From Bacillota bacterium (lineage in GTDB: Bacteria; Bacillota; Limnochordia; Limnochordales; ZCTH02-B6), in assembly GCA_017656145.1 (NCBI GenBank), contig JACDOI010000010.1, positions 1 through 60,650 of the forward strand: 60,650 nucleotides of DNA, read 5' to 3'. The notes beneath the pieces are model-generated. The model worked only from the letters and a program-made list of their open reading frames with translations, searched no databases and had not been told where the DNA came from. Each line of letters opens with the position of its first letter. Positions within the stretch are counted from its first letter, which is position 1. Shown here piece by piece: positions 1,553 to 23,075 of this stretch. The position numbers were made by a program, and so were the translations under genes.

Positions 1553-3055
1553 TCAACTGTCCGGGGCGGCCGCTTGGGGCGGGCTCGCCTCTACCGCCGC
1601 CTTGGCCATCTCCGCCGCGCGGGTCAGCCGCTGGCACGTGCGGGTTCGCCCCAGAAGAAGGATGACGTCGTGAATGGGCGGGCTCACCGCGGTGCCCGTG
1701 AGGGCCACCCGCGCGGGCTGGATGACGTCGCCCAGCTTCTTGCCGTATTCGTCCGCCAGCCCGCGAAAGATCCGGTCGATGCCGTCCGACTCCCACGGAT
1801 CGAGCTCGATGAGGCGGGCCACAAGCCGGGCCAGAAGGCCGGGAACGTATTCCCGATGCAAAAACCGGCGCACCGCCTTTTCGTCGAACTCAAGGTCGTC
1901 GGTGAAAAAGTACCGGGTCGCCGGCACGATGTCGGCGAGCGTTTTCAGCCGCACTTGCAACGGAGCCATGATGCGTTCGAGCCGCTCCAAAAGCGCCTGA
2001 TCCAGCTCCGCCGGCACGAGCCCGGCCTCGCTCAGCCGTTCGTGGGCCAGCTCCGCCAGCCGGGACAGCGGGGCGTTGCGGATGTAGACGCCGTTCATCC
2101 ACTCAAGCTTCTGCAGATCAAAGATGGCCGCGTGCTTGGAGACCCGATCCAGCGAAAAGTACCGCACGAGCTCGTCCCGGCTGAACAGTTCCGTGCGATC
2201 GTCGTACGACCAACCCAGCAAGGCCAAGTAGTTGACCATGGCCTCCGGCAAAAAGCCTTGCTCCCGGTAGTGGCCGACGGACACCGCGCCGTGCCGCTTG
2301 CTCAGGCGGGTTCGATCGGTCCCGAGGATGAGCGGCACGTGGGCGAACTCGGGCAGCTCCCAGCCGAAAGCTTGGTACAGCTGAATTTGCCGGGCGGTGT
2401 TGGTCAGGTGATCCTCCCCGCGGATCACATGGGTGATCCCCATCAGGTGGTCGTCCACCACGACCGCGAAATTGTACGTCGGCCACCCGTCGGACTTCAT
2501 GATGACCAAATCGTCCAGGAGCTTGTTTTCAAACGCCACCTCGCCCCGAATGCGGTCGTGGAACCGAACCTCGCCTTCGTCCGGCGACAAGAACCGCACC
2601 ACCGCCGGACGCTCCCTGGCGAGCCGCTCCCGCTCGGCGTCGGACAAGTGCAAGCACCGCCGATCGTACATGGGCGCCTCGCCCGCAGCGAACCGCTCCG
2701 CCCGGCGGGATTTGAGCTCCTCCGGCGTGCAATAGCACCGGTACGCCTTGCCTTCTGCCAGAAGCTGCTCGGCGTAGCTCCGGTAAATCTCCAAACGCTC
2801 GCTCTGCATATAAGGGCCGCAAGGCCCCCCGACGCCCGGACCCTCGTCCCAATCGATGCCAAGCCACCGGAGCGCGTCGATAATGGCCCGGGTCGATTCG
2901 TCGGTGGACCGAACAAGGTCCGTGTCCTCAATCCGCAGCACGAATTTCCCGCCATGGTGGCGCGCAAACAGCCAGTTGAACAACGCCGTGCGGGCCCCAC
3001 CGACATGAAGGTACCCGGTGGGACTGGGCGCATAGCGGGTCCGCACATCCTTCAC
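1553..3055 (-). CDS. gltX: Glutamyl-tRNA synthetase (possibly non-discriminating)
   Basis: This 500-residue class I synthetase charges tRNA-Glu. The HIGH-type motif GYLHVGG is at 14-20 and the KMSKS-type motif RLSKR at 250-254. A zinc site C107-x-C109 with C134-x-H136 matches the Cys-x-Cys...Cys-x-His pattern of bacterial GluRS. A C-terminal anticodon-binding helical domain follows. It starts at a GTG that overlaps the mtnA stop by four bases (GTGA), indicating translational coupling. No GlnRS is seen, and in many Bacillota GluRS also charges tRNA-Gln for later amidation by GatCAB. The tRNA-Glu and tRNA-Gln genes close by are consistent with that but do not prove it. Confidence 0.95.
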   Translation of the reverse strand: MKDVRTRYAPSPTGYLHVGGARTALFNWLFARHHGGKFVLRIEDTDLVRSTDESTRAIIDALRWLGIDWDEGPGVGGPCGPYMQSERLEIYRSYAEQLLAEGKAYRCYCTPEELKSRRAERFAAGEAPMYDRRCLHLSDAERERLARERPAVVRFLSPDEGEVRFHDRIRGEVAFENKLLDDLVIMKSDGWPTYNFAVVVDDHLMGITHVIRGEDHLTNTARQIQLYQAFGWELPEFAHVPLILGTDRTRLSKRHGAVSVGHYREQGFLPEAMVNYLALLGWSYDDRTELFSRDELVRYFSLDRVSKHAAIFDLQKLEWMNGVYIRNAPLSRLAELAHERLSEAGLVPAELDQALLERLERIMAPLQVRLKTLADIVPATRYFFTDDLEFDEKAVRRFLHREYVPGLLARLVARLIELDPWESDGIDRIFRGLADEYGKKLGDVIQPARVALTGTAVSPPIHDVILLLGRTRTCQRLTRAAEMAKAAVEASPPQAAAPDS

Positions 3056-4137
3056 GCGATATCCGCTCCTTGCTCGTCTAGACGGTTCACAAGCCGCGCC
3101 AAGCCCTCTTCGTAGGGCGGGCGCACTACCCCGTGTTCAGTGATGATGGCGGTGACGTAACGGGCGGGGGTAACGTCGAAGGCCGGGTTGAGCACATCGA
3201 CGCCCTCCGGCGCGATGGGCTGCCCCGCGATGTGGGTGACCTCGCTCGCGGCCCGTTCCTCGATGGGCACTTGTCCGCCGTGCTCCAGACTTAAATCCAG
3301 CGTGGACACGGGCGCCGCCACATAGAACGGGATTCCGTGCTCCCGGGCGAGGATGGCCAAACCGTAGGTGCCGATCTTGTTGACCACATCGCCGTTGGCG
3401 GTGATGCGGTCCGCACCCACGATGACGCTGCGGACAAGTCCCCGGTGCATGACGTGCGCCGCCATGTTGTCGGTGATGAGGGTAACCGGGATGTCTTCCT
3501 GGAGAAGCTCCCAGGCGGTGAGCCGGGCTCCTTGCAAAAACGGCCGCGTCTCGCAGGCGTACACCCGCAGCGGGGTGCCCCGGGACCACGCAGCCCGGAT
3601 GACTCCCAGCGCCGTCCCGTAATCCACCGTCGCCAAGGCACCGGTGTTGCAGTGGGTCATCACGCCGCCGGGTTCAACCAGCGCCGCCCCGTGGGCCCCG
3701 ATTTTCCGGCACGTCGCCGCGTCCTCGGCCGCGATCGCGTGGGCCTCCTCCAGGAGCCGGTCCGCCAGGGCAGCGGGACTCATGTGCGGACAGGCGTCGA
3801 TCACCCGCATCATGCGGTCGACGGCCCACGACAAGTTGACCGCGGTCGGCCGGGCCGACCGCAATCGCCCCGCGATGCGGGCCATCTCGGCCCGGAAGTC
3901 ATCGGCGCCCTCGGCTGCCTCCCGGGCGCCCAGGACGATGCCGTACGCGGCCGCAGCCCCGATGGCCGGCGCACCTCGCACCACCATGGACCGGATGGCG
4001 GCCGCCACCTCCTCGGCGGTGCGACATGTGACGGTTTCAAACTCGCGCGGCAATCGGCGCTGATCGATCAAGTGCAGCGCCCCGTCCTCCCACGCGAGCG
4101 TGCGCACCGGTTTGCGGCCGGAGACCGGCTGGTTCAT
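3052..4137 (-). CDS. mtnA: S-methyl-5-thioribose-1-phosphate isomerase
   Basis: This 361-residue methionine-salvage enzyme converts methylthioribose-1-phosphate to methylthioribulose-1-phosphate. Family hallmarks are RGAPAIG (54-60), the catalytic Cys163 in HCNTGALAT and Asp243 in GADRI, followed by NGDVVNKIGTYG. Length is typical. A GGGAGGGAG ribosome binding site sits 5-10 bases before the ATG. It lies 75 bases downstream of the DUF4387 gene and overlaps gltX by four bases. The rest of the salvage pathway is not in this window. The eIF2B-like paralogues of this family are unlikely because both catalytic residues are present. Confidence 0.95.
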   Translation of the reverse strand: MNQPVSGRKPVRTLAWEDGALHLIDQRRLPREFETVTCRTAEEVAAAIRSMVVRGAPAIGAAAAYGIVLGAREAAEGADDFRAEMARIAGRLRSARPTAVNLSWAVDRMMRVIDACPHMSPAALADRLLEEAHAIAAEDAATCRKIGAHGAALVEPGGVMTHCNTGALATVDYGTALGVIRAAWSRGTPLRVYACETRPFLQGARLTAWELLQEDIPVTLITDNMAAHVMHRGLVRSVIVGADRITANGDVVNKIGTYGLAILAREHGIPFYVAAPVSTLDLSLEHGGQVPIEERAASEVTHIAGQPIAPEGVDVLNPAFDVTPARYVTAIITEHGVVRPPYEEGLARLVNRLDEQGADIA

Positions 4138-4212: not shown

Positions 4213-4554
4213 TCAAGCGGCTGCCTTGGGCTTGACTGTGACGGCCCGCACTTCCAGTTCCAAAAGCGGCGCGTACATTTGGCTTCCCATCACGTCGGTC
4301 TCGCCCGGACTGCCGCTGGGCCGGGACCGGCGAATGGTGAACTTGATGGCCCGCGCGGGGTCGAAGGCCACAAACCGCACCAGTCGCTCAGGACCGATGC
4401 CATACAGCCGGCATACCCGTTCCGGGGTCAGCTCGCCGCTGTTTTTGACCTGCCGGTATACCTCATCGTCCCGGAAGATGACGTCGAACGTTATGCAGTC
4501 GGGGCCGGCGTTTTTGCTGCGGATGGTCGATGCTAGCTCACAAAGGCGCGCCAT
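4213..4554 (-). CDS. DUF4387 family protein, probable partner of the AtuA-family protein
   Basis: This small (113-residue) protein is recognised from its conserved opening LCELASTIRSKNAGP and the following ITFDVIFRD segment. The family has no assigned reaction that I know. It is regularly encoded beside, or fused to, AtuA/DUF1446 proteins, as here, where it follows the AtuA-family gene after about 70 bases. The start at 4554 is chosen because AGGAGGG lies nine bases upstream; a longer reading frame to 4596 lacks such a site. No signal peptide or membrane segment is present, so it is probably cytoplasmic. It is likely controlled by the same c-di-AMP riboswitch as its neighbour. Confidence 0.8.
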   Translation of the reverse strand: MARLCELASTIRSKNAGPDCITFDVIFRDDEVYRQVKNSGELTPERVCRLYGIGPERLVRFVAFDPARAIKFTIRRSRPSGSPGETDVMGSQMYAPLLELEVRAVTVKPKAAA

Positions 4555-4626: not shown

Positions 4627-6045
4627 TTAAAGCTCCTCGAACTCCATGCGGAACAGCTCCAATGGGCTGTCAACCTCGATGACATGGTTCAGCGTCCACT
4701 CATAGGCGGCCCGGGCCGGCAAAACCTCATCGCTCAAAAACGCGGCCGCCCCGGCGGTCCCCTTGAGTCCCGGAATGCGGGCGTACATGAAGTTTCGCCC
4801 CGCGAGGTTGGCAAGCTCCACCGCCTCAGCCCGAGTAGGCGCCACGGCTTCCACGACCACGCACACTTCGTGGCCGCGGATCTCTTTGACGGGCTCAAGC
4901 TCGCCCATGACGCCGTTTTTTCCGTATACGTGGTAATGGACCTGGAAACCGGGTCGGTTGAACCGTTCGCCGGCCTTTTTCTGGGACCAGGCGATGCAAT
5001 CGTCGATGCGGGTGATGATGTGGGGGTCCCGGATTCCGACGATCATCAGCGCCCGCTCACCGACTTTGCCTGCCCCCTCCAACTTGACCGCGTATCGCGG
5101 CACAGCTACCCACCGGGAGCCCCGGGCCCGGGTCCGCCGCTCGTCCACCGCCTCGTAGACGCACTGGCTCATGTCCACATAGCCGCCGGGCAAGTATTCC
5201 CGGAAAGGATCGGACCGCTCGTACATGGCGTGAGAGGCCACCGAGGCCGGAGTGCACCGCTGGTAGCTGCTCATGGGTTCAAGGACGATGCCGTCCCTGT
5301 CGACCGTGCCCAGAATGCTTTCCTTGCCTGCGAACGGTTCGGCGCAAAAAGAGGCGCACTCCAGCAGCTTGCCCGCGTAGTAGGCGATGTCCCGGGAATG
5401 GCCATGAAGAAGCAGGGGCGCCGCGAACAGCGCGGGGTCGCACGAGCGGCCCGCGATGACCACGTCCGCCCCTTGTTTTAAGGCAGCTAGGATCGGCTCG
5501 ACGCCCATGACCGCCACCGCGTGGCCCGTGCGCCGCAAGTCTTCTTCAGTCAACGGCCCGCGGCCGTCGAGGCCCTGGGTCCACGCTCCCTGCCGCAGCC
5601 GCCGGGCGAGAACGTCCAGGTCCTGGTCGCTGAAGATCTTGGCCATGCGGAAACCGCTGATGCCGTGCCGTCTCGCCAGGTCCCGGATCATGGCCGCAAA
5701 TTCCCGCACGCCCCGGTCGGTGCCGGTATCCGACGCCGAACCGATGATCATGGGGATCCCCGCGCGGCGGCTCGCGGTGAAGATGAGTTCCAAGTCATGT
5801 TCTTGCCAAGTCCGGGGACTGGCCGGTTCGTCGGCCCCTAAGGGATGGGGACCGATGTCGCAGCTGCCTGAGTCGGCGACGATCGCGTCCGGCTGACGCT
5901 TCACTCCCGCCCAAAAGCTTGCTTCCTCGATTGGCGTGAACCCGAGATGGCCGGTGGGGCTCAGGAGTTTGAATACATCCGTTTCCGCGGTCCTCGGCCG
6001 GTGCGCTGCCGTTCGAGGTCTTGACGCCAACTCGGTTTCCGGCAT
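4627..6045 (-). CDS. AtuA-family (DUF1446) protein, acyclic terpene utilization type
   Basis: This 472-residue protein of the AtuA/DUF1446 family has the conserved core GVEPILAALKQGADVVIAGR followed by SCDPALF, an N-terminal ADSGSCDIGP block and SASDTGTDRG. In pseudomonads AtuA belongs to citronellol/geraniol degradation, but its reaction is not established and many homologues sit in unrelated settings. The ATG at 6045 is chosen because GGGAGGTG lies just upstream. The 5' leader carries a promoter, a ydaO-type riboswitch and an intrinsic terminator. With DUF4387 it probably forms a two-subunit enzyme or transferase. A terpene role is not supported, since no other terpene genes are present. 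Confidence 0.85.
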   Translation of the reverse strand: MPETELASRPRTAAHRPRTAETDVFKLLSPTGHLGFTPIEEASFWAGVKRQPDAIVADSGSCDIGPHPLGADEPASPRTWQEHDLELIFTASRRAGIPMIIGSASDTGTDRGVREFAAMIRDLARRHGISGFRMAKIFSDQDLDVLARRLRQGAWTQGLDGRGPLTEEDLRRTGHAVAVMGVEPILAALKQGADVVIAGRSCDPALFAAPLLLHGHSRDIAYYAGKLLECASFCAEPFAGKESILGTVDRDGIVLEPMSSYQRCTPASVASHAMYERSDPFREYLPGGYVDMSQCVYEAVDERRTRARGSRWVAVPRYAVKLEGAGKVGERALMIVGIRDPHIITRIDDCIAWSQKKAGERFNRPGFQVHYHVYGKNGVMGELEPVKEIRGHEVCVVVEAVAPTRAEAVELANLAGRNFMYARIPGLKGTAGAAAFLSDEVLPARAAYEWTLNHVIEVDSPLELFRMEFEEL

Positions 6046-6092: not shown

Positions 6093-6147
6093 AAAAAACA
6101 AACGGCGGGCGGTGCCGCGCCGGCAGGCGCCGCGGTCCGCACGCCGT
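6093..6147 (-). terminator. Riboswitch-linked intrinsic terminator before the AtuA-family gene
   Basis: On the minus strand the arm ACGGCGTGCGG pairs, with one mismatch, with CCGCCCGCCGT. A smaller hairpin is nested inside, and TTTGTTTTTT (6093-6102) follows. The 5' arm abuts the 3' end of the ydaO aptamer and the T run is about 48 bases before the start codon. This is the layout of a transcription-attenuating expression platform. Confidence 0.75.
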
Positions 6148-6322
6148 CTTCCACGCTGACGAGGTTAGCTAGCGGGTTCGGGCCGAAAACGTGGCCCTAC
6201 CTGGCTCGACCAGGATTCACCCTCCGTTCCGGGCCGACTAGAGCTCCGGTTGCCACCGTTCCGGTACCCGGAACGACCGTTGGGTCCCCCGTTTTTGCCG
6301 TTCTAGGCAAAATTAAGCGCTC
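6148..6322 (-). promoter_or_regulatory. c-di-AMP riboswitch (ydaO/yuaA class) controlling AtuA-DUF4387
   Basis: The minus strand contains the ydaO aptamer signatures in order: GCGCTTAAT, GGGGGACCCAACGG, GAGGGTGAATCC, GGCCCGAACCCGCTAGC and TAACCTCGTCAGCGTGG. The last block closes a P1-type stem with the first. Known members bind c-di-AMP and usually switch genes off when it is abundant; typical targets are potassium transport, osmolytes and wall hydrolases. The adjoining terminator suggests transcriptional control. An AtuA/DUF4387 operon is not a target I know of. Assignment is by motif order and not by a covariance search. Confidence 0.92.
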
Positions 6323-6364
6323 TTCGTGCCCAATCACTCTGTCGTATGAAATTTTCTCACTCTT

Positions 6365-6393
6365 ACGGTAACCCATCAGCCGAGGTTTGTCAA
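6365..6393 (-). promoter_or_regulatory. Promoter for the AtuA riboswitch transcript
   Basis: On the minus strand a perfect TTGACA (6388-6393) is 17 bases from TACCGT (6365-6370), a poor -10 box. Transcription would start about 35-40 bases before the riboswitch aptamer. Confidence 0.55.
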
Positions 6394-6433
6394 CCCCGGA
6401 AATCGTCGGTTTTCGCGGGCAGCCGCCCGGATG

Positions 6434-6634
6434 CTACATGATGATGGAGCAATACGCCTCGACTTCGTCATCCGGCGCACCGCGCAAGTATTTTTCCAGC
6501 TGGGTCACGGTAGCACCGGTCACCCGTTCCAGCCCGCCGTCCAAGGCCCGCCGGCAGACAGCGAGGCTCGCGTACGACTCGGGATGTTCCTGGATGAAGC
6601 GGAGGATCTGCGCGATTCCTTCTTCGCGGTCCAA
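6434..6634 (-). CDS. Orphan 66-residue protein in a c-di-AMP riboswitch operon
   Basis: I do not recognise a family. The reading frame starts with TTG preceded by a perfect AAGGAGGT nine bases upstream, which strongly supports translation. The protein is mostly helical in character and acidic, with no signal peptide or membrane segment. It has two cysteines, one near residue 26 and one near the C-terminus (AYCSIIM). The central GLERVTGATVTQLEKYL segment has a turn-helix look but is not a clear DNA-binding motif. It follows the peptidase C26 gene on the same strand after about 120 bases and precedes the promoter of the AtuA unit. It is therefore probably co-transcribed with the C26 gene. Confidence 0.7.
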   Translation of the reverse strand: MDREEGIAQILRFIQEHPESYASLAVCRRALDGGLERVTGATVTQLEKYLRGAPDDEVEAYCSIIM

Positions 6635-6757
6635 CGGGTTTCGACCTCCTTAAGGCGCTATTGTGCACCCGGAAGCCGACCCTATTCGCTCGGAATTTCG
6701 CCTGGCAAACCGGTTTTTCCCGCAGCTGCCGGGCCGTTCCCTTGGCCTTTGCCGCTT

Positions 6758-7558
6758 CTAAACAGGCGCTCCGGAAATGACCGGAGCAAGCCGCCGGCGC
6801 CGAGCCCGGCTCGTGCGGCAAGCTTCGACGAACGCGTCAAACAGCCTCCGCCACTCGGGCACCGCGTCCATCAACAGCTCGGGGTGAAACTGAACGCCCA
6901 CGACAAACCGGTGGGTCCGGCTCTCCACCGCCTCCGGGATGCCGTCGTCGGCCCGGGCGCTGATGACGAACGGAGGCGCGACCCGCTCCGCGGCCTGGCG
7001 GTGCAGGCTGTTGACGCCGATAGTCGTCTGGCCGAGGATCCGGTGCAAGAGGGTTCCAGGCGCAATCCGGATTTCGTGGACGACCCGGCGGCCGACCGGG
7101 GGGGCGTCGCAGAAGTGGTCCCGGGCGCCAGGGACCCTCCGGTCGATGCGCGAGAAGCAGCGACCCCCGCCGATGCGCACAATCATTTGGTGGCCCCGGC
7201 AAATGCCCAGCACCGGCGCGTCCTCGGCCAGCGCGGCCCGAAGGAGCGCCGCCTCGAAACGGAACCGCCGAGGCGCCAGCGTTTTCAGATCCGGCAGGTT
7301 CGGGCGGCCCAGGTGACGGCGCCGCATGTGCCCGCCGCCGGACAAGACGAGCCCGTCAAGCATGCGGACGTACTGCTGCGCGCTGGCTTCGCCGCCGGTT
7401 GGGGGAAGAAGGACAGGCACGGCGCCTGCCCGCTCCAGCGCCCGGCTGTACGCGGTGTCGATGAAGCTGAGGGATACGCGGGGTCTCAGAGACTCGGAGT
7501 CTCGACCGCTGTCAAAATCGGTGGTGATGCCGACCAGGGGCGCGTCGCCCGTGTGCAT
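6758..7558 (-). CDS. Peptidase C26 / gamma-glutamyl-gamma-aminobutyrate hydrolase family protein
   Basis: This 266-residue class I glutamine-amidotransferase-like hydrolase resembles PuuD. The nucleophile is Cys120 in GICRGHQ, and the catalytic pair is His225 and Glu227 in FHPE. VNSLHRQA (182-189) and the LSGGG loop (72-76) are typical. Relatives cleave gamma-glutamyl amides such as gamma-glutamyl-GABA or folate polyglutamates; the substrate here is not known. The ATG at 7558 has a weak GGGAG about 12 bases upstream, lying in the loop of a hairpin formed by GCGGGCG and CGCCCGC. The upstream c-di-AMP riboswitch has no T-run terminator, so control may be translational. Confidence 0.88.
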   Translation of the reverse strand: MHTGDAPLVGITTDFDSGRDSESLRPRVSLSFIDTAYSRALERAGAVPVLLPPTGGEASAQQYVRMLDGLVLSGGGHMRRRHLGRPNLPDLKTLAPRRFRFEAALLRAALAEDAPVLGICRGHQMIVRIGGGRCFSRIDRRVPGARDHFCDAPPVGRRVVHEIRIAPGTLLHRILGQTTIGVNSLHRQAAERVAPPFVISARADDGIPEAVESRTHRFVVGVQFHPELLMDAVPEWRRLFDAFVEACRTSRARRRRLAPVISGAPV

Positions 7559-7650
7559 GAGCGGGCGTCACTCCCGACTGTTCCGGGCTGAGCGCCCGCC
7601 ACAGGCAACGTTGCGACGAGCCCAACCCGGTTCGGGTAGCCGCAGCCCGC

Positions 7651-7800
7651 TTCCACGCTTGCGGGGTTAGCTGGCGGGTTCGGGTCGAGCGAGTAACCCT
7701 ACCCGGCGACGGCCGGGATTCACCCCAGGGCCAAATGAGGCTGGCCCGCGCATCGGGTCCCCCGCTCCCGCCCCCTTCCGGGGCGGGATTCAGCGCTCTT
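7651..7800 (-). promoter_or_regulatory. c-di-AMP riboswitch (ydaO/yuaA class) controlling the C26 amidase gene
   Basis: Minus-strand signatures in order are GCGCTGAATCC, GCGGGGGACCCG, TGGGGTGAATCC, GACCCGAACCCGCCAGC and TAACCCCGCAAGCGTGG, a close match to the ydaO aptamer. It begins about 25 bases after the predicted transcription start. No U-run terminator lies between the aptamer and the start codon. A hairpin placing the weak ribosome binding site in its loop could serve as the output. This is the second c-di-AMP aptamer within 1.6 kb. Confidence 0.93.
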
Positions 7801-7830: not shown

Positions 7831-7860
7831 ATTATAGATGCCTGACATCGGCGGTGTCAA
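7831..7860 (-). promoter_or_regulatory. Consensus SigA promoter for the C26 riboswitch transcript
   Basis: On the minus strand TTGACA (7855-7860) and TATAAT (7831-7836) are both perfect, with an 18-base spacer. Strong constitutive transcription followed by riboswitch control is expected. Confidence 0.85.
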
Positions 7861-7937: not shown

Positions 7938-8975
7938 TTACAGTGTTCCCGCGACCGCGTGACACGCGACCCGATGGCCCCCGCCCACCTCGGCAAGCGG
8001 CGGATCTACGGACCGGCACGTCTCGTTTTTTTCGGGCAGGAAACAACGGCTGTAAAACCGGCATCCTTTCGGCGGGTCGATGGGCGCCGGGGGATTGCCT
8101 TCCAGGATGATCCGTTCCCGGCGGCCGCCGCGCTTGCCCAAGCGTGGGACCGCGGACACCAGCGCCCGTGTATACGGGTGCAGCGGCCGGGCGAACAGAT
8201 CGCCTGCAGGCGCCAGCTCCACGATGCGGCCCAGGTACATGACCGCGATGCGGTCGCTGATGTAACTCACCACAGACAGGTCGTGGGTGATGAACAGGTA
8301 CGTCAGGCCCAACTCCGCCTGGAGCCGCTGGAGCAAGTTGATAATCTGAGCTTGAATCGACACATCCAAGGCCGAGACCGGCTCGTCGGCCACGACGAAC
8401 GCGGGGTTCACCACCAGCGCCCGGGCGATGCCGATCCGCTGCCGCTGGCCCCCGCTGAACTGGTGCGGATACCGGTGGATGTGGCTTGGCGACAGGCCTA
8501 CCTTGTCCAACATCTCCAGCACCCGCCGCCGGATTTCCTGGCGCGGCATCCCCTGGATCGCAAGGGGCAGCCCGACGATTTGTTCCACGGTGCGCCGGGC
8601 GTTTAGGGACGCAAACGGATCCTGAAAAATGATCTGCATCTTGCGGCGCAGCGGCCGCAGTTCCCTCGGAGGCAGGGCCGTAACGTCCCGGCCCTCAAAC
8701 CGCACGGTCCCCGCGGTCGGTTCATAGAGCCGCAAGATGCTGCGGGCCAAGGTCGACTTGCCTGAGCCCGATTCGCCGACCAACCCCAGCGTCTCGCCCC
8801 GGGCGATGGTCAAGTCAACGCCGTCCACCGCGCGGACCCAGCGGGTTTGCCGGCCCAAAAGCCGCTCCGCGAAGCTGGCGCGCACCGGAAAGTGCTGCTT
8901 GAGGCCGATGACCTCCACAAGCGGCTCCGCGGGTTCCGCCTGAAGACGTGCCGCTTCCGGGCTCACGCCGGCCAT
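7938..8975 (-). CDS. Peptide ABC transporter ATP-binding protein (DppF/OppF type)
   Basis: This 345-residue ATPase energises a peptide-type importer. It has Walker [10 protein letters not shown], signature SGGQRQRIG and a Walker B region ending in ADEPVSALD. The C-terminal oligopeptide-ATPase extension carries a GCRFYSRC segment. The ATG at 8975 is chosen because it follows the dppD-like stop codon by four bases and opens directly into the conserved domain; a longer frame to 9182 runs inside the preceding gene. It is the last gene of the five-gene operon. Substrate (di- or oligopeptide, nickel chelate or other) cannot be told from the sequence. Confidence 0.9.
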
Positions 8976-8979
8976 CCCC

Positions 8980-10032
8980 TCACGCCTCCTCCGGCTGCCC
9001 GGCCGGTTGGCCAGCCGGGACCGCCTTGTGACATGCCACCCAATGCCCGGGGCCGACGTCGAACCGGGCAGGTTCCACCTGGCGGCAATAATCGTCCGCC
9101 AGCGGGCAACGGGTGCAATAGGGACATCCGGGGGGCAAGGCATGGAGCTCGGGCACGGTGCCTTCGATGGGCCGGACCACATGGGTTCGATCGCCGAGCC
9201 TCGGAATGGAATCGAGCAACCCTTGGGTGTACGGATGCCGCGGGTTGGTCAAAAGTTCATCGAGGGGTGCAGCTTCCACCGCCCGCCCGGCGTACATCAC
9301 CATCACCCGGTGGCAAAACTCGCTGACGACCCCAAAGTCGTGGGTGATGAGCAAAATGCTCGTCCCGTACTCTTCCTGGACCCGCTGCATCAGATCGAGG
9401 ATCTGGGCCTGAATCGTCACGTCCAGGGCGGTGGTTGGTTCGTCAGCCAAGAGAACTGCGGGATTGCAACTTAAGGCGATCGCGATCATGACCCGCTGGC
9501 GCATGCCGCCGCTCAACTCATGAGGGTAGGCCATCATCCTCTCGGCCGGAGCTGGAATGCCCACCTTTTCCAGCAGCGCAACGGCCCGTTCCCACGCCTC
9601 GCGCCGCGACCGCCTCCAACTCAAGGGCAGTCGGGTTGTCCCGTTTCCCCCGGAAACGAGGTCGCGGTAGTGGATCCGGATGGATTCGACCACCTGATCG
9701 CCGACCCGCATGACGGGATTGAGCGTCGAAAGCGGGTCTTGAAAAATCATGGCCATTCGATTGCCCCGCAGGCGCCGCAGTTCCCGTTCGGGCTTGCCCA
9801 CCAGGTTTTCCCCCATCAAGCGAATCTCCCCGCCCACGATCTTCCCCGGGCGAGGAACGAGTCCCATGATCGACAGCGCGGTCATGCTCTTGCCGCACCC
9901 CGACTCGCCGACGACGCCCAACGTTTCGCCCGGAAACAGCGCGAAACTGACGCCGTCCACCGCTTTCACGATGCCCCGCTCTGTGGGAAAGTGCGTCTTC
10001 AGGTCCCGGACCTCGAGCACCGGCTCGATCAT
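8980..10032 (-). CDS. Peptide ABC transporter ATP-binding protein (DppD/OppD type)
   Basis: This 350-residue ATPase pairs with the DppF-like protein. Walker A is GESGCGKS, the signature is SGGMRQRVM and the Walker B region is [11 protein letters not shown]. The C-terminal peptide-transporter extension has [13 protein letters not shown]. The ATG at 10032 lies just after the preceding permease stop (GTGAGCCGATG) and starts at the conserved [11 protein letters not shown]. An upstream in-frame start would overlap the permease gene. It is probably translationally coupled in the operon. Confidence 0.9.
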
Positions 10033-10036
10033 CGGC

Positions 10037-10969
10037 TCACTCCCGAAGGCGCGGGTCCAGCGCGTCCCGCAGGCCCTCACCGAGCAAGTTGATCCCAAGC
10101 ACTGTCACGAGAATGGCAAGGCCGGGAAACGTCGCCATCCACCACGCCTGAAAGATGTACTCTCTCCCCGAGGCCACCATCGAGCCCCAGGCGGGAGTCG
10201 GCGGCTGCACCCCCAGTCCGAGGAAGCTCAATGATGCTTCCATCAAAATGACCCACGCCACCCGCAGCGTCGCGACGACGACGACGGCGGACAAGACATT
10301 GGGCAAGATCTCCCGCCACATGATGTGGGCATCGCTCGCGCCGACGGCTCGTGCAGCCTCGACGTATTCCTGGTTTTTGGCGGCCAGCACTTCGCCCCGC
10401 ACAACCCGGCAAGGGGTGACCCATTCCTTGTACACCAGGGCCAACACCATATTGACGAACCCGGGGCCCATCACGCCCATGAGACCGATGGCCAACACAA
10501 GGTAGGGAAATGAGAGCAAAATGTCTACGAGGCGCTGGATGGCCGCGTCCAGCCGACCGCCGTAGTACCCGGAAACGAGCCCCATGGCCACCCCGACGAC
10601 GGTGGCGAATCCGATGACAACGCCCCCGACCGCCAGCGACGCCCGGGCTCCCCAAATGATCCGGCTGAGGATGTCGCGGCCCAACTGGTCCGTGCCCAGC
10701 GGGTGCTCCCATGTTCCGCCTTCCATCCACGCCGGCGGGCGAAAGCGGTTGAAAAAGTTTGCCTCCGTCGGATCGTGGGGCGCCAGCCACGGCGCCAAAA
10801 CGCCCGCCCATACGACCGCCAGCACCACCACGGCGCCTGCCACCGCCGCCCGGTTTTTCCGGAAGCGGCGCCAGAAGTCGGAAATCGCCTCCCAAACCCG
10901 TTCTCCCGTCCACCGCCTGCGGAGCACCTCGGGGTTGACCGCGGGCGTGCTCGAAGTCACCGTCAACAC
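10037..10969 (-). CDS. Peptide ABC transporter permease (DppC type)
   Basis: This 310-residue inner-membrane permease has a cytoplasmic N-terminus, a first helix at about 40-60 and the periplasmic HPLGTDQLGRD block that marks the DppC/OppC family. Five or so further helices carry the EAA loop EAARAVGASDAHIMWREILP. It starts with GTG and follows the DppB-like gene by nine bases. Together with that protein it forms the transmembrane channel. Confidence 0.92.
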   Translation of the reverse strand: MLTVTSSTPAVNPEVLRRRWTGERVWEAISDFWRRFRKNRAAVAGAVVVLAVVWAGVLAPWLAPHDPTEANFFNRFRPPAWMEGGTWEHPLGTDQLGRDILSRIIWGARASLAVGGVVIGFATVVGVAMGLVSGYYGGRLDAAIQRLVDILLSFPYLVLAIGLMGVMGPGFVNMVLALVYKEWVTPCRVVRGEVLAAKNQEYVEAARAVGASDAHIMWREILPNVLSAVVVVATLRVAWVILMEASLSFLGLGVQPPTPAWGSMVASGREYIFQAWWMATFPGLAILVTVLGINLLGEGLRDALDPRLRE

Positions 10970-10978
10970 CGCCCCCGC

Positions 10979-11989
10979 TCAAAACCGCACCCTGGGATTG
11001 AGAACCGTATACAACACGTCCGCCAAAAAGTTCATCGTCACGTACGTCATCGCATACACCAGCACCGCCGCCTGCACCACCGGGTAGTCCCGGTTGTAGA
11101 TGGACTCGACCACCAATCGGCCAAGGCCTGGCCATGCGAAGACCGACTCCACGATCATGTTCCCGCCCAAAAGCACCCCGATGTTTAACGCGACGACGGT
11201 CACCGTAGGGCTCAACGCGTTCCTTAAGCCGTGGCGGAGCACGACTTCAGTGCCAGATAGCCCCTTGGCTCGGGCGAACGTGATGTAGTCCTGATGAATC
11301 ACTTCCAGCATGCCCGACCGGGTAACCCGCATGGTGAGCGCCGCCATGGACGTGCCCAGGGTCAGCGCGGGCAGCGCCAAGTGCCTCAAAGAGGCCCGGA
11401 ACGCCGCCCAATTGCCCGTCAACACCGAGTCGACCAAGTAGAGCCCGGTAACCGTTTCGGGCTCCATCCCCCAGGGTATCCGGCCCGAGATGGGCAAAAT
11501 CCCCCACCGGACGCCAAAGAGCATGATCAAGACGAGGCCGAGCCAAAAGTCCGGCATGGACACCCCAAGCAGCGCTCCGACGGTGCCGACCTGATCGACA
11601 GCTGAGTGCCGGTGAACCGCCGCCAACACCCCCGCGGGCACCGCAATGATGAGGGAGATCAAGATCGCGGCGGCAGTCAGCTCGATGGTAGCCGGCATCC
11701 GGGAAAGCAACAGGTCCCGCACCGGCTGCCGCTGCACCAAGGACATGCCCAAGTCTCCCCGCACGATGCCCGCCAAGAAGTTCCAGTACTGGATGGGCAG
11801 CGGGAGGTCAAGGCCCAGCTCCTGGCGGTAACGCTCCAAGTCTTCCTCGGACACGCCGCTTTCGCCGGCGAACATCACCTCCACCGGATCCCCGGGAGTG
11901 AGGTGCATCAAGGCGAACACGATCAGCGTCACGCCCAAAACGACCGGAATCAACTGCAGGGCGCGGTTGAGGATCTGGGCGGCGTTCAC
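10979..11989 (-). CDS. Peptide ABC transporter permease (DppB type)
   Basis: This 336-residue permease opens with a membrane helix followed by the family motif HLTPGDPVE (about 29-37). Several further helices follow, with the EAA-type loop ARAKGLSGTEVVLRHGLRNAL. It ends with VLNPRVRF, as DppB/OppB proteins do. It lies between the binding-protein gene (106-base spacer) and the second permease. The spacer holds a short GC-rich stem at 12028-12045 that may lower downstream expression relative to the binding protein. Confidence 0.92.
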   Translation of the reverse strand: MNAAQILNRALQLIPVVLGVTLIVFALMHLTPGDPVEVMFAGESGVSEEDLERYRQELGLDLPLPIQYWNFLAGIVRGDLGMSLVQRQPVRDLLLSRMPATIELTAAAILISLIIAVPAGVLAAVHRHSAVDQVGTVGALLGVSMPDFWLGLVLIMLFGVRWGILPISGRIPWGMEPETVTGLYLVDSVLTGNWAAFRASLRHLALPALTLGTSMAALTMRVTRSGMLEVIHQDYITFARAKGLSGTEVVLRHGLRNALSPTVTVVALNIGVLLGGNMIVESVFAWPGLGRLVVESIYNRDYPVVQAAVLVYAMTYVTMNFLADVLYTVLNPRVRF

Positions 11990-12095: not shown

Positions 12096-13607
12096 TCATT
12101 GCTTGACCGCGGTATGGAGGTTGATGCGGCTGTCCGGGATCGGGTCCCAGCCGCTCAGCGACTTGCGCTGGGCGTACAGTTCCTGAGTGATGTACTCAAA
12201 CAGCATGGGGGCATCCTCATAGACCAGCTTCTGGGCGTAGCGGTACGCCTCGGCCCGGGCTTCGAGGCTCGTCGTGCTTTCGGCGAACTCAATGAGCGCG
12301 TCAACCGCCGGGTTGGAGTATCCGCCGAAGTTGCCCCGGTCGCCCGTGCGCAGCTTGGGGATGAAGATGCCAGTTGGGTCCATGGTGCTGTCGCCCCAGT
12401 CGGTCATGATCGCATCCAGCTCGCCCCGCCGCATCGCTTCCACCATGGTGTTGTAGTCGCCCCAGACCCGGATGTTGGCGGTCACACCGACCTGTGCCAG
12501 CATGAACGCGTACGCTTCCGCGACGTCCCGGCGCTTGTTTTCCACACTCAGCTCAAACTCGAAACCGTTTGGGTAGCCGGCCTCGGCCAGAAGCTGCCGG
12601 GCCCGCTCGGGATCGTAAGGGTAGGGCTCCAATTCGTCGTTGTACCCAAACGACAGCGGAGACAAAATAGTCGGCAAAGGCTGCCCGAGCCCCCCGAGCA
12701 ACTGATCGATCACGAGGTCCACGTCGATGGCATAGTTCAGCGCCTGGCGCACCCGGACGTCGTCGAACGGCGGCCGCCGCACATTGAACTCCGTGAAGTA
12801 GCTGCGGGTCCCCATGACTGGCCGCAGCTCGAGATCCGGATGCCGCTCGATGTCGGCAATGGCGTGGACGGGAACGTTGGCCATGATGTCGATCTCGCCG
12901 GCCATCAGCGCGGCCAGCCGGGTAGCGTTCTCAGGAATGATGCGGAAAATCACCCGTTTCGCCGGGGCCGGGCCGCTGCGGCCCAGGTCGGGCGCGCCGC
13001 CGTAATAGTCGTCAAACCTTTCCAGCACCACATGGCTGCCCCGCACCCACTCGACGAACCGGAACGGACCGGTGCCGATGGGATGCTCCACCAATCCGTC
13101 TCCGACCGAAGCCGGAACGATCATATGGTGAACCAGATACGGCAAGAACACGGACCACGGCGCGGACAAGTACACCCGCACCGTGTAGTCGTCCACGGCC
13201 TCCGCGTGGGTCACCGGACCCAACAAGTCTTTCCGGGGCGACGTCTGACCGCCCATCGCGCCCTCTTTCACATACCGGTTTATGGAGAACGCGACGTCCC
13301 GAGCGGTCATTTCCGTCCCGTCGTGGAACTTGACCCCGCGGCGCAACCGGAACTCCCAAGTCGTCTCATCGATTTGCACGATGCTCTCCGCCAGCTCCGG
13401 AACAGGCTGCATGTCCGGCCCGCGCGTGACCAGACCGTCGTAGATGTTTCGCAGGACGGTTTCCGTTTCCCGGTGGCGGAAATTGTGCGGATCGAGATTT
13501 TGCAAATCGGCGGTGATTCCGACAACGATCGTATCGGCGTCCTGAGCATGTCCGGCCGCCGCAGCCACCGCGATCAGCAGGCTTGCGGCTATGATCCCCA
13601 GTCTCAT
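12096..13607 (-). CDS. Peptide ABC transporter substrate-binding protein (SBP family 5)
   Basis: This 503-residue extracellular solute-binding protein begins with a hydrophobic signal sequence ending at about AGHAQ. Family 5 features follow: LDPHN, NIYDGLVTR, WEFRLRRGVKFHDG and an AEAGYPNGFE block. The ATG at 13607 has AAGGAGGG six bases upstream. There is no lipobox cysteine, so it is predicted to be released by signal peptidase I rather than lipid-anchored, which is unusual for a monoderm Bacillota. It heads the operon. The ligand is not predictable, as this family binds peptides, nickel, sugars and other compounds. Confidence 0.9.
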   Translation of the reverse strand: MRLGIIAASLLIAVAAAAGHAQDADTIVVGITADLQNLDPHNFRHRETETVLRNIYDGLVTRGPDMQPVPELAESIVQIDETTWEFRLRRGVKFHDGTEMTARDVAFSINRYVKEGAMGGQTSPRKDLLGPVTHAEAVDDYTVRVYLSAPWSVFLPYLVHHMIVPASVGDGLVEHPIGTGPFRFVEWVRGSHVVLERFDDYYGGAPDLGRSGPAPAKRVIFRIIPENATRLAALMAGEIDIMANVPVHAIADIERHPDLELRPVMGTRSYFTEFNVRRPPFDDVRVRQALNYAIDVDLVIDQLLGGLGQPLPTILSPLSFGYNDELEPYPYDPERARQLLAEAGYPNGFEFELSVENKRRDVAEAYAFMLAQVGVTANIRVWGDYNTMVEAMRRGELDAIMTDWGDSTMDPTGIFIPKLRTGDRGNFGGYSNPAVDALIEFAESTTSLEARAEAYRYAQKLVYEDAPMLFEYITQELYAQRKSLSGWDPIPDSRINLHTAVKQ

Positions 13608-13638
13608 CAAGTTCCCTCCTTGCCTGATGATATGGGGT

Positions 13639-13716
13639 CGCAAAACCGGTTCTCATCCCTCCTTTCAGACCCCTACGTTAACTGATAATAATTGTTCTCT
13701 TTTCCGCAAACCGGTT
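13639..13716. repeat. Direct repeats with AACCGGTT core upstream of the peptide transporter
   Basis: CGCAAAACCGGTT (13639-13651) and CGCAAACCGGTT (13705-13716) recur 66 bases apart, each followed by TCCTC-like sequence and containing the palindrome AACCGGTT. They lie between the divergent binding-protein gene and sppA and could be paired operator sites. This is inferred from repetition only. Confidence 0.35.
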
Positions 13717-20933: not shown

Positions 20934-23075
20934 GTGCGAAACTTCGTTTCCGAGGAGACTCTGGGCAAGGCGTACGATAGCCGCCTCATGCGGCGGCTTT
21001 TGCGCTACGCCCGCCCTCATGCGGGCTTGATCGCGCTTGCGGTCTTGCTTCTGTTGTTCATCACCACCGCGGACCTGGCCCGGCCGTATATCGTCCGGAT
21101 CGCCATCGACGAGCATCTTTTGGCTTTCGAGCGGCCGTTCGCGGCGTTCGCTCCCGGCCGCGAGCCGGTCCCTGGCGTTTCCTGGAACGGATGGATACTA
21201 GTGCGGGAAGACCGGGTTCCGCCGGGAATCCAAGCGGAGCGGCGCTTCCAGATGGTGGTGACCGACGATGCCGGGCCGGGCCGGTACTACCTCATGGAAG
21301 GCACCATCAACCAGCGGTCCGAGACGCACCGGGTGGTGGCCGACGGTGCCGGCTATGCGGTAGAGGCCGGCGGCCGGCGGTTTCCGGCCTTCCCCCTCGA
21401 TGAGGCGGACATCCGCGCCTTGCGGGCCGACGACTTGTCCGCCATGGGCCGGCTGGCGTGGCTATTTCTCGGGCTCATTGTCTTGGCGGCCGGGTTGAGC
21501 TACGCGCAAGTGTACATCTTGCATTACACCGGCCAGCGCATCGTCTTCCAAATCCGGGAGGACGTCTTCAACCACCTGCAACGGATGCCGGTCCGGTTTT
21601 TCGATCAGAACCCGGTGGGCCGGCTGGTGACCCGGGCCACCAACGACATCGACACACTCAATGAAATGTTCACCAGCGTCCTGGTGAATCTCTTTAAGGA
21701 CGTGTTCTTGCTGGCCGGCATCCTCATCGTGATGTTCCGCATCCACTGGCAGCTCGCGCTGGTTAGCCTAACGGTCATGCCGGCGGTCGCGGCCGTAACC
21801 GTGGCGTTCCGCATCCGGGCCCGGGACGCCTACCGGCAAGTCCGTTTGAAGCTGGCCCGGATCAACGCGACGCTGGCTGAGAACATTTCGGGAATGCGGA
21901 TCATTCAACTGTTCAACCAGCAGGACCGCATGTTCCGGGAGTTCGACGCCGTCAACCGGGACCACTACCGGTCGATGATGCAGGAAGTGCGGGTATTCGC
22001 CCTGTTCCGGCCGGCGGTGGAATTCTTGTCGTCGCTGGCGCTCGCCATCATCATCTGGTACGGCGGCGGCCGGGTGGTGCAAAATACGCTGGACTTCGGC
22101 GTTCTCTACCTGTTCATCCAGTACATGCAGACGTTTTTCCAACCTATCAACGATTTGACCGAAAAGTACAACATCATGCAGTCCGCCATGGCGTCCGCGG
22201 AGCGCATCTTTCTCATTCTGGACACGCCCCCCGAAGACGATCCGGCCGAACCCGTCCATCTGCCGTCGGTACGGGGCGAGATCGAGTTTGACGGGGTCTG
22301 GTTTGCCTACAACGGGGAAGATTGGGTGCTCCGAGACGTCAGTTTTCACGTCGAGCCCGGCCAGTCGGTGGCCCTGGTAGGCGCCACCGGCGCGGGGAAG
22401 ACGTCGATCATCAATTTGCTCACCCGGTTTTACGACGTCCAACGGGGGGTCATCCGGATCGACGGCATTGACATCCGCCGCCTCCGCCGGCAACAGCTGC
22501 GCCGGCATATCGCCGTCGTCTTGCAGGATGTGTTCCTGTTTACCGGCGATATCGAAAGCAACGTTACACTGCACAACCCGGACATCCCGGCAGGGCAAGT
22601 CCGGGAGGCGGCCCGGATCGTGCATGCGGATCCGTTCGTCAGCCGCCTGCCCCAAGGTTACAAGACGGCGGTCCGCGAGCGGGGCGCGGGCTTGTCGGCG
22701 GGCCAGCGGCAGCTCATCCAGCTCGCCCGGGCGCTCGCTTACGACCCGGCCATCCTCGTTCTCGACGAAGCAACGGCCAACATCGACACCGAGACGGAGC
22801 ATCTCATTCAAGATGCGCTGAAGCGGGTCATGCGGGGCCGGACGACGGTGATCATCGCCCACCGGCTCTCCACCGTTCAGCACTGCGACAAGATCATTGT
22901 GCTGCACAAAGGGCGGATCCGGGAATCCGGCACTCACCGGGAGCTTTTGGAAGCCCGCGGCTTGTACTACCGGCTGTACCAGCTGCAGTACAAAGACCAG
23001 AACGTATCCGGATCGGTCAGCGAAGCTGCTCGAGGCTCCGTTCCAGCGCCTCCCATGCCAGAAGGGCGCATTTGA
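20934..23075 (+). CDS. ABC exporter half-transporter, catalytic partner (BmrD/YheH-like)
   Basis: This 713-residue half-transporter has six membrane helices; an extracellular insertion of roughly 90 residues between helices 1 and 2 is typical of BmrD. The ATPase domain has Walker A GATGAGKTS, the non-canonical signature LSAGQRQ and a normal Walker B with catalytic Glu, ILVLDEATANID. The canonical Glu here plus the canonical signature in the partner would build one competent ATP site in the heterodimer. The GTG start has GAAGGTGG upstream. Its last 59 bases overlap the 3' end of sufU on the opposite strand. Confidence 0.9.
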   Translation: MRNFVSEETLGKAYDSRLMRRLLRYARPHAGLIALAVLLLLFITTADLARPYIVRIAIDEHLLAFERPFAAFAPGREPVPGVSWNGWILVREDRVPPGIQAERRFQMVVTDDAGPGRYYLMEGTINQRSETHRVVADGAGYAVEAGGRRFPAFPLDEADIRALRADDLSAMGRLAWLFLGLIVLAAGLSYAQVYILHYTGQRIVFQIREDVFNHLQRMPVRFFDQNPVGRLVTRATNDIDTLNEMFTSVLVNLFKDVFLLAGILIVMFRIHWQLALVSLTVMPAVAAVTVAFRIRARDAYRQVRLKLARINATLAENISGMRIIQLFNQQDRMFREFDAVNRDHYRSMMQEVRVFALFRPAVEFLSSLALAIIIWYGGGRVVQNTLDFGVLYLFIQYMQTFFQPINDLTEKYNIMQSAMASAERIFLILDTPPEDDPAEPVHLPSVRGEIEFDGVWFAYNGEDWVLRDVSFHVEPGQSVALVGATGAGKTSIINLLTRFYDVQRGVIRIDGIDIRRLRRQQLRRHIAVVLQDVFLFTGDIESNVTLHNPDIPAGQVREAARIVHADPFVSRLPQGYKTAVRERGAGLSAGQRQLIQLARALAYDPAILVLDEATANIDTETEHLIQDALKRVMRGRTTVIIAHRLSTVQHCDKIIVLHKGRIRESGTHRELLEARGLYYRLYQLQYKDQNVSGSVSEAARGSVPAPPMPEGRI

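Follow-up and report, generated by a model that had tools for sequence, protein, structure and literature searches.

The window analyzed here, a 60,650-nucleotide stretch of DNA from a Bacillota bacterium of the order Limnochordales (GenBank assembly GCA_017656145.1, contig JACDOI010000010.1), contains two adjacent sets of genes that each appeared to be led by a c-di-AMP riboswitch. According to reviews, such riboswitches are found mainly on genes for the transport of potassium, osmolytes and amino acids and on genes of the cell wall. The genes behind the two leaders are an amidase gene followed by a gene for a 66-residue protein, and a pair encoding an AtuA-family protein and a DUF4387 protein. 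The question raised by the locus is what process would place these genes under c-di-AMP control. The controlled genes are a recognizable catabolic module, one that the reviews do not count among the usual targets. We think it probable that they belong to a conserved uptake-and-breakdown module, the breakdown half of which is under c-di-AMP control in Limnochordia-like Bacillota. This reading draws on the identity of the riboswitches, a conserved terminator, recurrent gene clusters and the grouping of the OppA proteins.

The riboswitches and the genes behind them

A cmscan search matched both leaders to RF00379 (ydaO/yuaA) over the full length of the model (positions 1-134). Aptamer 1 (7805-7641, minus strand, as are all features of the locus) scored 84.9 bits (E = 2.4e-18), and aptamer 2 (6329-6139), which carries an insertion of ~50 nt, scored 73.3 bits (E = 4e-15). 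Neither score falls below threshold, both being well over the gathering score of 38, and on these sequence matches the leaders are ordinary members of RF00379. An earlier note, made from the sequence alone, had identified both as ydaO aptamers, with borders slightly narrower than those found here. The sole other RF00379 copy in the 2.57-Mb genome (contig C4, 28860-29016) precedes genes recognized by eye as encoding an OpuAC-like binding protein and a ProV-like ATPase. This glycine-betaine-type transporter is a canonical osmolyte target. A profile search detected a c-di-AMP synthase gene with a diadenylate cyclase (DAC) domain (105.7 bits), and by this match the organism encodes the means of making c-di-AMP. 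The sequence relatives of the genome are Bacillota metagenome-assembled genomes (MAGs). At its far end the window also contains a SAM-I (S box) riboswitch (60497-60371, minus strand, 84.6 bits).

Switch 1 is followed by the gene for a peptidase C26, or gamma-glutamyl hydrolase-type amidase (6758-7558; PF07722, E = 7.5e-52), and by that for the 66-residue protein (6434-6634). Switch 2 is followed by the genes for the AtuA-family protein (4627-6045; PF07287), a homologue of citramalate lyase subunit A (9erq_A, E = 1.8e-81), and the DUF4387 protein (4213-4554; PF14330), a homologue of subunit B (9erq_B, E = 9.3e-25). These assignments bear out the gene calls made previously. The catalytic Cys (GICRGHQ) and His-Glu (FHPE) motifs of C26 can be read in the amidase sequence, which scored 102.6 bits with the NCBIfam equivalog model for PuuD, below the cut-off of 266. 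The earlier note did not mention that switch 1 is immediately preceded by a complete oppABCDF operon. This operon encodes an OppA-type solute-binding protein (SBP_bac_5, 12096-13643; PF00496, E = 8.7e-97), the permeases OppB (10979-11989) and OppC (10037-10969), both conserved with those of relatives, and the ATPases OppD (8980-10047) and OppF (7938-8975), each with ABC_tran and oligo_HPY domains.

Promoters and expression platforms of the two switches

A sequence scan found a perfect promoter for switch 1, TTGACA-18-TATAAT (7831-7860, 12/12 match), and the element TTGACA-17-TACCGT was found by eye upstream of switch 2 (6365-6393). The suggestion that each leader has its own TTGACA promoter thus holds well for switch 1, but for switch 2 the TTGACA box is paired with a weak -10 box (TACCGT). 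The switch 2 orthologues for which enough sequence is available have good promoters, with good -10 boxes, before their aptamers.

Aptamer 2 leads into an intrinsic terminator (6093-6149) with an 8-bp stem, AGACGGCG/CGCCGUUU, and a U-run, which was also matched by a terminator scan. The same platform is present in five of five switch 2 orthologues: the 8-bp stem is followed by another of ~4 bp, by a top hairpin that varies, and by the U-run. Three of the orthologues have AAAAAGCG/CGCUUUUU as the 8-bp stem, G005 has AAAGAGCG/CGCUUUUU and the window has AGACGGCG/CGCCGUUU; two pairs that are A-U in the three relatives are C-G/G-C in the window, and G-U variants occur too. The folding energy of the 111 nt around the terminator, flanks included, is not below that of shuffled sequences (z = -0.01), and the case for the terminator is built on conservation across orthologues and not on folding energy. 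Because the covarying terminator is found in all five orthologues across the order, switch 2 probably acts as an OFF switch at the level of transcription.

The region between aptamer 1 and the start of the C26 gene (7559-7610) has no U-run terminator, either in the window or in G002 (locus L043), and its Shine-Dalgarno sequence, GGGAG, lies inside predicted hairpins. The region before the C26 start is strongly structured in the window (z = -2.74). The predicted pairing of the ribosome-binding region is 0.80 in the window but falls to 0.59 in L043, and for this reason the folding predictions do no more than suggest translational control by switch 1. A c-di-AMP switch of Corynebacterium glutamicum is reported to act on translation (PMC9960051).

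Occurrence of the switches among relatives

DUF4387 is encoded in 22 of 61 genomes, the window's own included. RF00379 precedes AtuA-DUF4387 in G000, G001, G002, G004 and G005, which represent two families, all in the window's order. Among the matches listed for 80 other Bacillota genomes with DUF4387, none, as judged by eye, places RF00379 upstream of the DUF4387 locus (0/80), and this rules out a general link between DUF4387 and c-di-AMP switches across the Bacillota represented by those matches.

Switch 1 is present before the C26 gene in G000 and G002 and absent in G001 and G004. In the latter two C26 comes directly after oppF with no switch between them, so that C26 is most readily viewed as the final gene of the opp operon, provided with its own switch in G000 and G002. 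Among the observations that count against the main reading are the lability of switch 1 and the lack of a switch on the opp operon of the window itself, the downstream genes alone being switched. A related opp operon does start with a c-di-AMP riboswitch in relatives that lack DUF4387. Nine relatives of families f5 and f9 have the riboswitch in front of oppA, with a full oppABCDF set where the contig allows.

Several further arrangements were observed. The riboswitch-headed oppABCDF operons of f5 and f9 (L004-L009, L011, L012, L015 and L193-L195) are followed in f5 by a gene that by eye is LarA-like. In four genomes (L047:6195-7769, L049, L148 and L149) the riboswitch-controlled OppA looks circularly permuted, the part matching residues 376-510 of the window OppA preceding that matching residues 34-357; in L047 the two form one frame of 524 amino acids. 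Riboswitches stand directly before genes for opine dehydrogenases of the octopine/nopaline type in nine relatives that belong to the window's order (G003, G005, G006 and G008-G013; loci L141, L142, L048, L044, L038, L039, L040, L041 and L042), several of which are followed by genes for a B12-binding protein and an asparagine synthase. The window genome has an opine dehydrogenase of this type without a riboswitch. In several relatives riboswitches also precede genes that by eye encode SulP-like anion permeases (L144, L146, L017, L019, L022, L024 and L027), and in another Bacillota genome two c-di-AMP aptamers stand in tandem 9 nt apart (G148:C9:22417-22567 and 22577-22712).

Linkage of import, amide hydrolysis and lyase genes

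Flanking sequences were fetched for 42 loci encoding an AtuA of the window type, and opp genes were found in the flanks of about half of them. In Alphaproteobacteria, oppABCDF, a gene for an AAT-family (acyl-CoA:6-APA acyltransferase) protein and a gene for a sigma-54 activator come before AtuA-DUF4387; in Sphaerobacter, AAT and opp genes lie on the strand opposite AtuA-DUF4387. One Streptomyces is also among the loci with opp genes. The gene order oppABC-C26-AtuA-DUF4387 is seen in an Armatimonadota MAG (L084), and C26, AtuA and DUF4387 are adjacent in an archaeal MAG (L057), together with a DcuC-type carrier. The C26 proteins of clusters in other phyla are only 36-41% identical to that of the window, which counts against the main reading. 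In a Desulfovirgula MAG (L074), AtuA-DUF4387 is accompanied by a D-glutamate-cyclase-like gene and a TRAP binding protein. No RF00379 was found near AtuA in 17 loci scanned outside the order. Import, amide hydrolysis and the lyase thus keep together in clusters of other phyla that have no riboswitch.

In an OppA tree the window protein joins the riboswitch-controlled OppA of the nine relatives with a support of 0.99. A wider clade (0.97) adds the AtuA-linked OppA of Alphaproteobacteria and Sphaerobacter as well as family f3 OppA under riboswitch control; it leaves out the own-genome paralogues included in the tree. The alphaproteobacterial group is joined to the window group at just 0.43, so that only the wider clade is firm. 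The tree points to one group of importers that is linked to AtuA in some lineages, switched by c-di-AMP in others, and both in the lineage of the window.

These data bear on the alternative that the switches are real but their targets unrelated, with switch 1 capping the end of an operon for peptide uptake, switch 2 serving a separate lyase and their adjacency being accidental. Such an arrangement would agree with the presence of switch 1 in only two of the four relatives that have this C26, and with G005, in which the switch and AtuA-DUF4387 occur with no opp or C26 gene of the window type within the 12 kb read. Chance adjacency is at odds with the riboswitch-independent clustering of C26, opp and AtuA-DUF4387 in other phyla and with the switch carried by the related opp operon in relatives without DUF4387, and we regard it as unlikely.

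The 66-residue protein and its neighbors

The earlier note had described the 66-residue protein as an orphan. Its gene is coding, with changes concentrated at third codon positions, and the family is conserved in 28 of 61 genomes; the window protein (6634-6434) and its class-wide homologues carry the motif HPESYASLAVCRRALD. Searches of Pfam, PHROGs and the PDB gave no convincing relative. Where sequence could be read, the gene is commonly beside mtnP, mtnA or gltX (families assigned by eye), and this class-wide neighborhood excludes the protein as a member of the module. It is probably a bystander in the transcript of switch 1. In G003, which lacks DUF4387, a single MFS-like gene separates the 66-residue gene from mtnA, which follows downstream. 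Judged from this gene order, the lineage of the window has the block of switch 2 and AtuA-DUF4387 placed between the 66-residue gene and mtnA-gltX, where it probably arrived by insertion.

In the window, mtnA (3052-4137; TIGR00512, above cut-off) begins 75 bp behind DUF4387, and its end overlaps gltX (1553-3055; assigned from its translation, with the gene order kept in L036 and L150). Given the 75-bp gap and the overlapping ends, mtnA may possibly be reached by read-through from switch 2, and glutamyl-tRNA synthetase may be partly under its control.

The earlier proposal that all four proteins behind the switches form one process, which might, speculatively, make or turn over an osmolyte in amidated or gamma-glutamyl form, is thus only partly borne out: the amidase keeps company with AtuA-DUF4387 independently of riboswitches (L057 and L084), but the 66-residue protein belongs with mtnP-mtnA-gltX. 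The C26 family does include gamma-glutamyl hydrolases, osmolytes are under c-di-AMP control, and a D-glutamate-cyclase-like gene neighbors AtuA-DUF4387 in L074. The recurring neighbors are nevertheless importers and hydrolases rather than ligases. Gene clustering points to import plus breakdown, not synthesis, and we consider the four-protein osmolyte pathway quite improbable.

Relationship to citramalate lyase

A search of the PDB gave one convincing structure for each subunit, namely citramalate lyase A (AtuA) and B (DUF4387) in entries 9erq and 9evf, the latter titled as a citramalate lyase-ADP-pyruvate complex. A predicted model of the window AtuA (pLDDT 87) matches 9evf_A with a Z-score of 48.7 over 443 aligned residues; all other matches in this fold search are to single domains, the best with a Z-score of 9.3. 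A tree of 84 AtuA sequences places CmlA in one clade with nearly all of the Bacillota copies sampled, which share 43-60% identity with CmlA. The window AtuA falls outside this clade, in a sister clade whose members are 49-79% identical to the window protein (40-41% for two Anaerolineae copies) and 28-38% identical to CmlA. The split between the two clades has a support of 1.0 (edge 0.79). Residues conserved to at least 95% in both clades include, as examples, Asp-59, Gly-61, Ser-62, Asp-64, Gly-66, Pro-67, Gly-200, Arg-201, Asp-204, Lys-227, Glu-230, Cys-231, His-273, Lys-322, Glu-324, Arg-340, Asp-341 and His-455 (the numbering counts one extra residue ahead of the ATG at 6045). Because these residues are kept across both clades, AtuA-DUF4387 is likely to be a lyase of the CmlAB type; the position of the window AtuA in a deep clade of its own leaves citramalate as a candidate substrate and not a proven one.

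An ordinary citramalate lyase ending the methylaspartate route of glutamate fermentation, controlled by c-di-AMP on account of glutamate's role as potassium counter-ion, would suit the homology to CmlAB and the DUF1446 gene that enterobacteria and Dictyoglomus have beside methylaspartate ammonia-lyase (PMC4682846), but is very unlikely given that no methylaspartate ammonia-lyase was found in the genome (best score 23.1 bits, cut-off 27) and that the window AtuA stands apart from the CmlA clade.

Discussion

We favor an uptake-and-breakdown module in which an ABC importer of the Opp type is combined with an amide hydrolase, in the window peptidase C26, and with a CmlAB-like carbon-carbon lyase of two subunits. 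At high c-di-AMP, aptamer 2 would let the terminator at 6149-6093 form, stopping transcription of AtuA-DUF4387, and aptamer 1 would probably hide the ribosome-binding site of C26. The c-di-AMP switches studied so far turn genes off (PMC9960051, PMC5575661), from which we infer that both enzymes should be made at low c-di-AMP. An imported peptide-like or amidated compound could then be split into small acids, which would be pyruvate and acetate if the substrate were citramalate. A possible reason for such control is that hydrolysis and carbon-carbon cleavage multiply small anions, which would be best avoided under solute excess. This rationale would fit the situation in Listeria, in which peptide import harms cells without c-di-AMP and mutations in opp, pycA and citZ bring relief (PMC8549634, PMC5836111).

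A more specific version, that the module is dedicated to one peptide-like or amidated solute serving as both osmolyte and carbon source, with c-di-AMP governing its uptake in the relatives and its breakdown here, is tentative, and we hold it to be doubtful. If true, turgor control would be joined to a specific catabolic route, and, taken with the riboswitch-controlled opine dehydrogenases of the same order, it would imply a class of conjugated amino-acid osmolytes new to bacteria.

The c-di-AMP riboswitches of the window precede genes for solute-breakdown enzymes, and those of relatives precede the linked importer of the peptide type. Peptide toxicity in Listeria without c-di-AMP is rescued through opp and central carbon genes by a mechanism that is only partly understood (PMC8549634), and a natural lineage with c-di-AMP switches on opp and linked enzymes offers a testable genetic form of that link. 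The uncharacterised AtuA-DUF4387 clade likewise gains a physiological lead. The literature covered, which lacked the primary surveys of ydaO targets, contained no paper that connects c-di-AMP riboswitches to AtuA, to opp or to opine dehydrogenase. The riboswitch itself is known; its wiring to C26 and AtuA-DUF4387 looks new, with earlier mention in the primary surveys possible.

Each part of the locus resembles a known system. Like the RF00379 elements of Bacillus subtilis kimA and C. glutamicum nlpC, the window aptamers are full length and exceed the gathering score, but in place of the known potassium, osmolyte and wall targets they precede a C26 amidase and a CmlAB-like lyase. The nlpC switch is reported to have no terminator, as is the case for switch 1, whereas switch 2 has a terminator platform. 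The window amidase shares the C26 domain and catalytic motifs with the gamma-glutamyl-GABA hydrolase PuuD; it differs in scoring under the PuuD cut-off and in lying outside any polyamine operon. The importer has the full five-gene set of the OppABCDF oligopeptide permease, and its OppA belongs to a distinct, AtuA-linked group. Finally, the CmlA-CmlB pair (PDB 9ERQ and 9EVF) has the same side-by-side arrangement of AtuA and DUF4387, the same fold and many motif residues in common with the window proteins. Unlike CmlA, the window AtuA, at ~35% identity, falls in a separate clade with diagnostic positions of its own and in the context of opp and amidase genes.
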